DNA of 32,392 nucleotides from a virus: positions 1-32,392 of IMG/VR virus record IMGVR_UViG_3300034524_000188. One strand, given 5' to 3'. Numbering within the stretch: the stretch's first letter is position 1; every line of letters begins with the position of its first letter. The notes under the pieces were generated by a model, which ran no database searches, was not told the origin of the DNA, and saw nothing but the letters and a program-made list of their open reading frames with translations. The translations under genes were made by a program, and so were the position numbers. Shown here piece after piece: positions 1-31,428 of the stretch.

Positions 1-729
1 CTATACGTCCGGTTTGGGATAGGGTTCTATCGGCAATCTGAGTCGTTTTTGCCACGGCTTTTTGATGAAGTAGACGTAACGGAATTGCCTCAGCTTACAT
101 TTCTTGGCGCGATGAAGATTTTCACGCAGAAAGCGCCCGCGTTTACCGCCCTTCTTATGAGCGGTAAGCAACATCTCATGGTACGTATCGCCGTCCAATT
201 CATAGAAGGTTGTGTAATGATGGCCGCAGTAATGGAAGTTGCTGGCCTGATACACCACGCCCAATCCGCCGCATCGCTCGTCTGCAAAGGATTGGACCCA
301 TGCCACGGAAGGAATTGCCTTCTTGATGTACTTGAAAGCGTGGGAAATTGCTTGGCTCTCGCTGTTGCGCGGTGCGGCATCTGATAGCCACATACGGTTC
401 AACTCAAGGTATTCGCCCACGTTGGTATCTGCAACGACCTTACCGGCCCGGTGGGGGTTCAGGGCATAGCCGAACTGGAGGACTCCCTCCATCTTGCCAT
501 TCAGGAAGACTCCCAGATGCACGTAGCTGTTGTTCACTACCCGATGCGAATAGTGGTGTTTTACGATCACCTCGCGGGCCATGGCCACTGGGATGACTGC
601 CACATAGAAAGTGCGGCAGCCAAACCCGGCAACGGCCTTTGATCCGTAGATATACTCTCGATTGTCATTGAGCGGTGCCGCGATTTCGCCCGGATCGGGC
701 GGATGATGCGGCTTGCGTTTGCTGACCAA
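1..729 (-). CDS. mom: Mom-like DNA adenine modification protein
   Basis: 242 residues, close to the length of phage Mu Mom. Mom is a GNAT-fold enzyme that converts adenines of phage DNA to a carbamoylmethyl-type derivative and so protects it from host restriction. Visible hallmarks are KHHYSH at residues 57-62, ELNRMW at 109-114 and SFADERCGGLGVVYQASNF at 147-165, with Asp150 and Tyr160 in the most conserved part, followed by a Lys/Arg-rich C-terminus suited to DNA binding. I place the start at TTG (727-729) because a GGAGG lies six bases upstream and no ATG is available before the conserved region. The gene overlaps com by 65 bases in another frame, as com and mom do in Mu. The stop codon is the first three bases of the window, so the gene is complete. 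Function is inferred from family resemblance and from the com neighbour. Confidence 0.9.
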   Translation of the reverse strand: MVSKRKPHHPPDPGEIAAPLNDNREYIYGSKAVAGFGCRTFYVAVIPVAMAREVIVKHHYSHRVVNNSYVHLGVFLNGKMEGVLQFGYALNPHRAGKVVADTNVGEYLELNRMWLSDAAPRNSESQAISHAFKYIKKAIPSVAWVQSFADERCGGLGVVYQASNFHYCGHHYTTFYELDGDTYHEMLLTAHKKGGKRGRFLRENLHRAKKCKLRQFRYVYFIKKPWQKRLRLPIEPYPKPDV

Positions 730-892
730 ACGATGCCTCCAAAATTGGAAGCTCGGTGGCCTGCGATTTGGGACTCTCGGTCCTCAGGATATTAACGGTC
801 TTGCAGCGTGGGCATTTGATCTCCAGCCTTACAGCCTTGCCCCTTGCCAGTAGTTTGTCACATTTGCCGCAGCGGATATCCTGTTTTTGCAT
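665..892 (-). CDS. com: Com-like zinc-finger translational activator of mom
   Basis: 75 residues. Four cysteines in two CxxC pairs (CGKC at 8-11, CPRC at 27-30) form the small zinc finger of phage Mu Com, an mRNA-binding protein needed for mom translation. The core IRCGKCDKLL then IKCPRCK matches the family pattern of a CPRC knuckle after a short basic hairpin. The C-terminal 35 residues are low-complexity, rich in Ser, Gln and Ala, and probably exist because this DNA also encodes the mom start. The ATG at 890-892 has no recognisable Shine-Dalgarno (ACGTTTAACCG precedes it). Mu Com is slightly shorter. Identity is firm from the motif together with the overlapping mom; the regulatory role is inferred from Mu. 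Confidence 0.88.
   Translation of the reverse strand: MQKQDIRCGKCDKLLARGKAVRLEIKCPRCKTVNILRTESPKSQATELPILEASFGQQTQAASSARSGRNRGTAQ
736..751 (-). promoter_or_regulatory. Hairpin covering the mom Shine-Dalgarno
   Basis: On the minus strand CTTCCAATTTTGGAGG can fold with CTTCCA pairing to TGGAGG (one G-U pair). This buries the GGAGG that serves the TTG start of mom at 729. In Mu a translation-inhibiting stem at the mom start is opened by Com binding nearby. The position and effect here match that arrangement, but Com binding is inferred. Confidence 0.55.
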
Positions 893-25955: not shown

Positions 25956-26459
25956 TTACCTCCGCTTCAACTCATCTACGGGAATCAGCGCAGTCCCACG
26001 GCCCCACAGCAACACACCTACATACCACCGCCCGTCATAGGCCAAAATGGGAGGCGTCGTTGTCCGCGTGACATCGCGTTGCGCCACATCTCCCAACTTC
26101 CGTCCGTTTGCTACGCTCACGGACGTCCCCACAGGCAGATCAGGTTCAGGTGCAATGACGGGCGACTCCCCCACGGCGATAGTGGACGCGATGGCGGATA
26201 TCTGCTGCACATCTATGTACGAACCATCATGCCATTTACGATCTATCCGCAGACGATAGAGGCCCGGCTTCCCGTCATCCCATTGCTCGGACGGGAACAG
26301 CTCCATTCTGACCGTGGGTCTTGCGCTGGTTTTGACGCAAATCGCCGTGCAATAACTCCGCTTTTCTGCCACAGTTCTTCCTTTTGGCTGCTCTTCAGGT
26401 CCGACGCGCCACCGCCGGACGACCGCCTCCGCTCCCGCACGGAGGACGGTTTCGCACAT
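25956..26459 (-). CDS. Hypothetical early protein
   Basis: 167 residues if started at ATG 26457-26459, which abuts the HU stop (TAAATG) but lacks a close ribosome site. A GTG at 26370-26372 has AAGGAAG at good spacing and would give 138 residues starting AEKRSYCTAICVKTS; I consider this start about equally likely. The rest is beta-rich (RMELFPSEQWDDGKPGLYRLRI; LPVGTSVSVANGRKLGDV; WYVGVLLWGRGTALIPVDEL) and could be an SH3- or OB-like small domain protein. Family not recognised. Confidence 0.6.
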   Translation of the reverse strand: MCETVLRAGAEAVVRRWRVGPEEQPKGRTVAEKRSYCTAICVKTSARPTVRMELFPSEQWDDGKPGLYRLRIDRKWHDGSYIDVQQISAIASTIAVGESPVIAPEPDLPVGTSVSVANGRKLGDVAQRDVTRTTTPPILAYDGRWYVGVLLWGRGTALIPVDELKRR

Positions 26460-26747
26460 TTAGTTCAACGCTTCCTTCAACGTTTTGCCGGGCGTGAACT
26501 TCACCGATTGGGAAGCGGGAATTTCGACCGCCTCGCCGGTTCTGGGGTTGCGGCCCATGCGGGGTGCCCGCTTGGACACCTTAAACGTTCCGAAGCCGGT
26601 GAACTGAACGGCGTTGCCCTCGGAGAGTTCCTCAGTGATCACATCCAGAGTGGTATTGATCACGTCGCCCACAGCCCGGCGCTCTGCCGTAATCCCCCGC
26701 GCCGCAAGGGCCTCTACCACTGCCGTTTCAAAGTCTGCTCTAGTCAT
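26460..26747 (-). CDS. HU-family DNA-binding protein
   Basis: 95 residues, ATG 26745-26747 with GAGGA upstream. The HU/IHF pattern is complete: helices 1-2 (AVVEALAARGITAERRAVGDVINTTLDVIT), then AVQFTGFGTFKVSKRAPRMGRNPRTGEAVEIPASQSVKFTPGKTLKEAL, with the GFGTF element at about 51-55 and the GRNPRTGE arm with its DNA-intercalating Pro. It bends DNA. Mu uses host HU and IHF for the transposition complex, so a phage copy in the early operon probably serves the transpososome or phage gene control. Confidence 0.95.
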   Translation of the reverse strand: MTRADFETAVVEALAARGITAERRAVGDVINTTLDVITEELSEGNAVQFTGFGTFKVSKRAPRMGRNPRTGEAVEIPASQSVKFTPGKTLKEALN

Positions 26748-29358: not shown

Positions 29359-31428
29359 TCAGGCTCGCATTCCAACCGCTTCGGGGCCGAAGTCGTTTAC
29401 CAATTCCATCAGGCTGTGATATTCAGGCGTGGTCTTGTATCCGCCAAGCCACATTGCTTCCTTCACCGCCACATCTCTTCCAGCCTCAATCTGGCGCTCC
29501 AGTTCCATGGCCCTGATGAAACGCGCTTCCCGCGTTTCCGGTTCGGGCTGCTTCGGAGCGGGCTTATGCAGCCGGATCACGTTAGCCTGTGGCGCGGCTT
29601 CCAGCTCGGCCACCACCTGCTCATGCAAGGTCCGTTGCGCGTCCGTCATGGGGGCGGGAGCGTCAACCGTAGGCTGCACACCGTGAAACTCTTCAATGAC
29701 CTCCTGCCGTTTCGCATCAACACGCTTTAAACGGGCTTTAAACCGCTTTTCGCGGGCCTGTTCGATGACCGGCACAGGGAAGTAATCCGTCCTGTTGCCA
29801 TTCAACTCCGCCGTGCATATCGCGCGGCCATCAAGATCACGCACCCACACTCGGCTCACATCATGAATATCGAAGCCAACCCGAACCTCCTGCCCGTGCA
29901 GGTGTTCAAGAGCCCGACTGAAATAACGGTTATTGAAGACGTCCAGCTCACAACGTCGGACAACGCGCTGAACGTAAGGCCGGAACATGTCGTCAACCTC
30001 AGCCGGCTCAGGTTTAAGCAGCTCGGTGAAGCGAGCCAGCTCGGCCCAACGCTGGGCCGGAGTCTTACGTCCAGACAGGGATGAATGCGGGCGGTTGTTG
30101 TAGGCTTCCACCTGTTGCTTCGCCCATTCCATGAACTGCTGCCATGTGAGCATGAGCTTAGTTGTCCCAGTGTTACGTATGTCTTGTTTCACGCGTTTAA
30201 AAACCATCTTGAGCGCTTCCGGGTCCATGTCGCCCTTGGCACAGGCCGGAAACTGTGACACCCCACGCACCCAACAACTGCGCTGGAAGCGTTCAATGAC
30301 ACCTCGGGCCTGTGAGTTGTAGGGAATGCTATGTTCCTTGCTGGTGCCAAGGCGGGCCAGAATGCCCATACCCGGAGAATCCAACAGCTTGTTTTTGAAT
30401 CCTGAACCGTTGTCCACGTAGAAGATAGCCGGAATACCGTATTCTACGGCGCTCATACGCAGGGCGTCCGCAACATCCCACCCACGTTCGGCGAGGCCTA
30501 TGGACCACCCCACGCATAGCCGGGTAGCCACGTCCAAGACCGATGTAACTTCCGGGCGAAACGGCTTACCGTGCACAGGGTGCAGCACATACATATCCAC
30601 CGTATGCCCATCTGCTGTGAACACATCCGTGGGGAGCAGCTTTGAGAAATCTCGGCGATGAAACGCCTTGAGGTTCTTCAGTTCACGCGGCAGCATCCTG
30701 CCCCGGTTGGCCTCCACCTCACCCAAGGATTTAAGAATACGCTCTACGGTCCGCAGGGAAGGCAACCGGACGCCATCGGGCAATAGATGCGGCTTTGCTA
30801 TTAGCTTCTCGTGGATTTCACGCACAGAAGGCTTCGTGGGTATGTTGTAATGCTCGCGGAAGTACGGCAGCCAATCCGGGACAAGTGACTTGGTAGGCAA
30901 TGGATTGCGCGGGGCAAGGCTGTCCGGCCCTTCCTGCTTCAGAGAGCGTCGCCAGTTGCGAAGAGTCGCGGGAGAGAGTGCCTTTCGACTTCCCTTACGG
31001 GCGTTGGCCGTCTCCACGAACTGCATCAAGGTTTCATTAAGCTCGGCACGTTTACCCATGCGAGCAAAACGCTTCTCTGCCTCCAGAATCCCCATGCTCA
31101 CGGCCATACCCGCTACGGTATCCAGAATGACTAACCGGGCGTCTCGTATCTCCCTCTGGCGATCCGTCATGGATGCCGGAGCGGGCCGCGAGACAGCCTG
31201 TTGCGGGCATACCTGCTTTTCACACAACGAGGCTGCTACCACCTCGGCAAGCTGCGCCCGCGTTGCATCGGGCATGGACACAACAAGCCACTCATTGCCA
31301 CCTCCACGTCCTGAACGCGGACGAGCCTGCCAGCCTTCTCGCTTGGCCCGCATCTGACAGGCCCTGTCCGTAACCGACAGTAACCCGGCAAGCTCTTTCG
31401 TGGTGTACGCGTCCTTATTGAACGTCAT
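29359..31428 (-). CDS. muA: MuA-like DDE transposase
   Basis: 689 residues, ATG 31426-31428. N-terminal Mu-type winged HTH (KDAYTTKELAGLLSVTDRACQMRAKREGW, 5-33; WLVVSMP 47-53), end-binding domains to about 260, and the RNase-H-like catalytic core with Asp273 (FTADGHTVDM), Asp339 (FYVDNGSGFK) and Glu379 (ARGVIERFQ) in the order and spacing of Mu A. A C-terminal beta-barrel and helical tail follow (YFPVPVIEQAREKRFKARLKR; EAMWLGGY), the latter for contacts with B. It integrates and replicates the phage by strand transfer. A 20-base sequence within the gene recurs at 16654. Confidence 0.97.
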   Translation of the reverse strand: MTFNKDAYTTKELAGLLSVTDRACQMRAKREGWQARPRSGRGGGNEWLVVSMPDATRAQLAEVVAASLCEKQVCPQQAVSRPAPASMTDRQREIRDARLVILDTVAGMAVSMGILEAEKRFARMGKRAELNETLMQFVETANARKGSRKALSPATLRNWRRSLKQEGPDSLAPRNPLPTKSLVPDWLPYFREHYNIPTKPSVREIHEKLIAKPHLLPDGVRLPSLRTVERILKSLGEVEANRGRMLPRELKNLKAFHRRDFSKLLPTDVFTADGHTVDMYVLHPVHGKPFRPEVTSVLDVATRLCVGWSIGLAERGWDVADALRMSAVEYGIPAIFYVDNGSGFKNKLLDSPGMGILARLGTSKEHSIPYNSQARGVIERFQRSCWVRGVSQFPACAKGDMDPEALKMVFKRVKQDIRNTGTTKLMLTWQQFMEWAKQQVEAYNNRPHSSLSGRKTPAQRWAELARFTELLKPEPAEVDDMFRPYVQRVVRRCELDVFNNRYFSRALEHLHGQEVRVGFDIHDVSRVWVRDLDGRAICTAELNGNRTDYFPVPVIEQAREKRFKARLKRVDAKRQEVIEEFHGVQPTVDAPAPMTDAQRTLHEQVVAELEAAPQANVIRLHKPAPKQPEPETREARFIRAMELERQIEAGRDVAVKEAMWLGGYKTTPEYHSLMELVNDFGPEAVGMRA
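29726..29745. repeat. TTTAAACGGGC-type repeat, copy inside transposase gene
   Basis: TTTAAACGGGCTTTAAACCG differs at two positions from the intergenic copy at 16654-16673 and has the same 11-base period. It encodes part of the Lys/Arg-rich stretch of MuA (FKARLKR), so codon usage may explain it. Confidence 0.35.

Follow-up and report, generated by a model that had tools for sequence, protein, structure and literature searches.

A two-hairpin Com-type RNA element overlapping the predicted translational lock of mom in a Mu-like phage, and its occurrence ahead of other DNA-modifying genes

The mom gene of the phage described here is very likely governed by a Com-controlled translational switch of the phage Mu type, in a fuller form which is common to most Mu-like phages. 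Two Com-type hairpins lie upstream of the mom start, and the second of them overlaps a predicted inhibitory hairpin (TIS) that hides the mom Shine–Dalgarno sequence and start region. Well over a hundred further phages have this layout ahead of mom or of DNA-methylating genes unrelated to it. Com itself is probably a trans regulator of a portable RNA element, i.e., a pair of Com hairpins with a start-codon lock that cannot coexist with the second of them, rather than a mom-specific factor; the element would be placed before unrelated DNA-modifying enzymes, sometimes twice in one phage, and Mu would carry a reduced form with the second hairpin only. The com–mom switch of Mu is a single-phage textbook case, and how its small zinc protein opens the inhibitory hairpin is contested. 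What is new here is the two-hairpin, mutually exclusive layout, which suggests how TIS opening could work, and the spread of this layout to other DNA-modifying genes; none of the papers available to the literature search describes a shared or conserved Com RNA element preceding methyltransferase genes in the mom slot.

The window, i.e., the whole stretch of DNA that was analysed, is a 32,392-base IMG/VR record of a Mu-like transposable phage, as judged from the family matches of its genes. Profile matches to Mu hallmark genes (PF09299, PF02316, PF06074, PF10124, PF10123, PF04233, PF04865 and Mu_Gp48) were obtained, and the gene products behind this assignment (transposase, portal, gpF, gpI-like, gpT capsid, sheath and baseplate) are all encoded on the minus strand. 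As in Mu, com and mom sit at the end opposite to the transposase. The features discussed below are as follows.

1-729, minus strand: mom, DNA adenine modification protein (by family), TTG start; PF25680, PHROG 1384
665-892, minus strand: com, 75-aa CxxC...CxxC zinc-ribbon protein; PF10122, PHROG 6417, PHROG 13819
708-802, minus strand: whole element as matched by covariance model R1
721-764, minus strand: predicted TIS, the inhibitory hairpin in which the mom Shine–Dalgarno and start region pair with H2 bases (MFE, centroid and comparative pairing)
727-729, minus strand: mom TTG start codon, from reading-frame inspection
736-740, minus strand: mom Shine–Dalgarno GGAGG, paired inside the predicted TIS
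749-762, minus strand: H2, second Com-type hairpin, AGGC-CACCGA-GCUU, of the form CC(N)3GAG, overlapping the 5′ arm of the TIS
771-783, minus strand: H1, first Com-type hairpin, GGAC-CGAGA-GUCC, of the form CC(N)2GAG, C-G closed
29359-31428, minus strand: Mu transposase, from a profile match

The four-cysteine zinc ribbon of Com (CGKC...CPRC) matches PF10122 (Zn_ribbon_Com) at 9.8e-16 with 57.4 bits against a cut-off of 22.9, PHROG 6417 (translational regulator) at 6e-19 and PHROG 13819 (gpCom) at 1.7e-07. Mom matches PF25680 over its full length (6.7e-83, 277.8 bits against a cut-off of 27.1, profile positions 2-202 of 202) and PHROG 1384 at 1.2e-64, contains the conserved Mom blocks HYS, NNSY.HLGV and QSFADERCG, and is 54% identical to Mu Mom in the aligned core. 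Judged from these comparisons, Com and Mom of the window are homologues of those of Mu. The first-pass annotation had placed both genes correctly, including their overlap of 65 nt (665-729 is common to both). It had also proposed that this phage evolved the same switch around another stem, as a second example beside Mu, a view which does not hold. The homology of both proteins to those of Mu (PF10122, PF25680) rules out an independent re-invention of the switch; dozens of com–mom loci keep the element with compensatory changes, and other com loci have it ahead of methyltransferase genes. These comparisons suggest instead that the window carries a homologue of a portable element that is found widely, and that the version in Mu is a reduced one.

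The mom TTG (729-727) has GGAGG (740-736) six bases upstream, separated from it by CATCGT, as had been reported from the first inspection, and it is the sole ATG, GTG or TTG start in the mom frame past the last upstream stop. Relatives start mom at ATG or GTG one codon downstream, where the window has GTC. A hairpin had been drawn earlier at 736-751; its pairing of GGAGG with CUUCC/CUUCCA was recovered, but this stem is only the tip of a larger hairpin running from about 764 to 721 in both the MFE and the centroid fold, the helix being extended through CGA/UCG and GGCCA/UGGUC. The UUG start is partly paired in the MFE and centroid folds of the mom start region, and the 5′ arm of the TIS falls within com.

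Compared with plain dinucleotide shuffles, the fold energy is unremarkable to weak (z of −1.36 for 241 nt and −1.70 for 101 nt) and, being only weakly significant, was not relied upon. When the Com-hairpin part of the window was held fixed and the linker and start region were shuffled, z was −5.4, and the start region pairs with the H2 bases with P 0.77 vs. 0.31 in the null. Column-wise covariation of the TIS was abandoned because the register of the TIS shifts among loci, and it was replaced by ensemble pairing with a fixed-H2 null. Stem conservation in relatives, which the first-pass annotation had suggested looking for, was found, i.e., the structure is kept across related loci; together with the z of −5.4, this shows the TIS to be more than chance. 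A Com–Mom cassette that, like that of Mu, conceals the mom start and Shine–Dalgarno sequence within an inhibitory hairpin is thus upheld by the predicted fold and by comparative support.

RNA binding has been demonstrated for Mu Com, whose target, defined by SELEX and probing, is 5′-CC(N)2-3GAG-3′ in a hairpin loop that is invariably C-G closed and lies next to the TIS, the native Mu Com site being the 19-mer GAAUGCCUGCGAGCAUCCC (PMC6483171). H1 and H2 of the window both match this form exactly; both lie upstream of the mom start, and neither had been noticed in the earlier annotation. The stem of H2 comprises four pairs only, one of which is G-U. Since the H2 bases also make the 5′ arm of the TIS, H2 and the TIS are mutually exclusive. 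The window thus resembles phage Mu in its overlapping com and mom, its non-AUG start, the Shine–Dalgarno sequence and start in a hairpin, and a C-G-closed CC(N)2-3GAG hairpin just upstream (PMC6483171). However, Mu has one hairpin beside a separate, shorter TIS, whereas the window and most relatives have two, the second overlapping the TIS, and mom starts with GUG in Mu and with UUG in the window.

Without Com, the mom Shine–Dalgarno sequence and start region would be locked in the TIS. In these particular RNAs, Com would presumably bind the short hairpins NNNC-C(N)2-3GA-GNNN, H1 probably being its loading or anchoring site, and Com held on H2 would block TIS formation and leave the mom start open. 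Across the 23 Mom loci that carry H2, pairing of the start region with the H2 bases has P 0.74 vs. 0.24 in the null (p 6e-7), with a mean energy z of −4.2 when the linker and start are shuffled, and forcing H2 in Mom loci lowers the mean start pairing from 0.73 to 0.46 (p 1.5e-4); methyltransferase loci follow the same pairing trends more weakly. For a short fragment of the window, forcing H2 lowers Shine–Dalgarno pairing from 0.76 to 0.37, while start codon pairing rises from 0.65 to 0.98. A three-way test, in which a downstream copy competes for the 3′ strand of H2, gave a modest effect (p 0.01 for Mom, 0.02 for all loci). Forcing H2 in Mom loci costs about 11 kcal/mol (about 12.6 kcal/mol for the window), which exceeds what one Com would easily pay, and capture during folding is proposed for this reason: Com would most likely capture H2 during RNA synthesis or refolding, rather than melt a finished TIS. 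The layout favours this order, as both H1 and H2 are positioned 5′ to the remaining TIS arm and translation of com takes ribosomes through the TIS. Such a switch would keep the modifying enzyme off until Com builds up late in infection, which may be its purpose, and the spread of the element points to a general phage need to delay DNA modification.

A different arrangement, in which Com binds H1 only and opens a separate TIS from the outside, in the way depicted for Mu, with H2 a by-product of the sequence shared with the TIS, is possible but unlikely. It would suit Mu, whose one hairpin lies beside the TIS with little overlap between them, and the position of H1 is the better conserved. However, H2 stems covary independently and retain the Com loop: with the motif not used for selection, full four-pair H2 stems occur in 63 loci vs. 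13 with permuted 3′ halves (maximum 23), and full four-pair H1 stems in 97 vs. 44 (maximum 54). A MAFFT alignment of 27 com–mom sequences has 96.3% of cells paired and 39 cells changed on both sides vs. 12 expected (0 of 500 shuffles), and the pairing is lost when the partners are slid; on the Mom tree, five variable pairs require at least 19 pair-state changes, which are therefore not a single inherited change. Moreover, the single hairpin of Mu aligns with H2 rather than H1. Mu and its sister L041 group on the Mom tree with a support of 100, and L041 carries both hairpins with an H2 stem (AUGC/GCAU) identical to the stem of Mu; it is therefore most likely that Mu retained H2 and lost H1.

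The occurrence of the hairpins was analysed in 159 distinct com loci pooled from four scans and named phages, using a strict motif (NNNC-C(N)2-3GA-GNNN with at least 4 pairs, within 110 nt past the last Cys codon). At least one Com-type hairpin is found in 135 loci, compared with 2.7 in dinucleotide shuffles (largest 8 in 200 rounds) and with 2 loci when the 110 nt preceding this region are used as control; at least two are found in 72 loci vs. 0.09 in the shuffles. Synonymous recoding of com gives 10.4 loci (largest 17) vs. 134 observed, and 0.24 vs. 72 for two or more hairpins. The strict motif is missing from 24 of the 159 loci in the same 110 nt. Hairpin positions are fixed relative to the last Cys codon, at +19 nt in 71 loci (H1) and at +41 in 76. 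At distinct Mom loci, a Com-type hairpin occurs in 35 of 37 with com vs. 0 of 38 without com (Fisher p 2e-19, relatedness ignored), a contrast partly confounded by GC content (61% vs. 40%); nine of the com-less loci exceed 50% GC, and the motif is in none of them.

The covariance model R1, built from com–mom loci alone (27 sequences, the window among them), has its sole match in the window at 55.6 bits and matches most of 99 other com loci. When run on complete bacterial genomes (2.3 to 6.8 Mb), it usually gives one match, in keeping with good specificity. No Rfam family matches the element, and an Rfam scan of eight other com loci gave one tRNA and nothing else. The loci also supply a large natural set of Com–hairpin pairs, which is useful since the pair from Mu already serves for RNA tethering.

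The gene after com varies. Based on a scan of one representative per cluster, the clusters comprise 49 D12-class N6-adenine methyltransferases (PF02086), 32 N6/N4 methyltransferases (PF01555), 28 Mom, 16 C5-cytosine methyltransferases (PF00145) and 7 ABC-ATPase/GNAT proteins with weak Pfam/NCBIfam matches only. The com loci with methyltransferases also bear Com-type hairpins, so the element is portable, occurring with Mom, with three methyltransferase families and possibly with the ABC-ATPase/GNAT protein. In the work of Drozdz et al. 2012, adenine methyltransferases reportedly replace mom in FluMu (hin1523), Pnme1 (nma1821) and an H. aegyptius prophage (Hia5). Prophages of this type thus have a DNA-modifying gene in the same slot after com, from enzyme families unrelated to Mom. 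The fused ABC-ATPase/GNAT protein (after com in L098, L176, L223, L225, L227, L249 and L289) is a candidate for a new DNA-modifying or otherwise toxic cargo.

Several individual loci depart from these patterns. A ParB-like/methyltransferase fusion follows com in L173 and L180, which are without Com-type hairpins. In L232, L234, L241, L245 and L326, com-like genes are followed by tail or unrelated genes, with Com-type hairpins in most of them, and these com genes may be orphans. A close relative of the window, L002:2715-3732, has com and mom in a single open frame of 339 aa; it was not accepted as a natural fusion, as a one-base shift or error would also explain the shared frame. In L016:2600-3050 the zinc ribbon of com is broken, and mom and H1 are retained.

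Copies of the element also lie ahead of a second methyltransferase gene that has no com zinc ribbon. R1 matches such copies at L229:2986-3088, L262:1054-1132 and L197:2899-2990, and the motif scan adds Com-type hairpins at a D12 gene in L118, L119 and L142, giving four lineages. The frames upstream of these stand-alone copies contain at most a Com-tail-like stretch and no zinc ribbon; the RNA element therefore seems to have outlasted the coding sequence. This arrangement suggests that Com acts in trans on stand-alone elements, and the copies could also be recent relics of a duplicated cassette. They are rare, and nearly all phage records searched have a single element.

These copies also bear on plain translational coupling, in which ribosomes finishing com would unfold the hairpin and mom would be read, the Com protein itself having no role. 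The geometry permits it, as the com frame crosses the hairpin from end to end and stops 65 nt into mom, so that translation of com must open the hairpin. However, coupling leaves unexplained the Com-type loops, the C-G closing pair and the compensating stems, the absence of hairpins at com-less Mom loci and the copies ahead of second methyltransferase genes, and Mu Com has been shown to bind RNA (PMC6483171); coupling as the whole explanation is quite improbable. That coding constraint on com, or a GC-rich composition, produced the hairpins incidentally is extremely improbable. The com frame does contain them and com loci are rich in GC, but recoding and shuffling remove nearly all of them and copies exist at sites that encode no com zinc ribbon.

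In the Mu mom operon, a GATC cluster upstream of com is under Dam/OxyR control. The window has two GATC sites there, 32 bp apart (945 and 977), and GATC in the window as a whole is at background level (135 vs. 124 expected). The Mu operon also has a late promoter that is activated by C; in the window, no sigma-70-like site was found just upstream of com. A perfect 12-base palindrome, CCCTGATCAGGG (941-952), contains one of the two GATC sites and is a possible regulator site; near matches to it in the rest of the window are no more frequent than chance predicts. In the early region, a Type II hammerhead ribozyme (26382-26457, minus strand; Rfam RF02276, 56.9 bits against a gathering threshold of 37) begins just past the stop of an HU-like gene (26460-26747) and is the sole Rfam match in the window.
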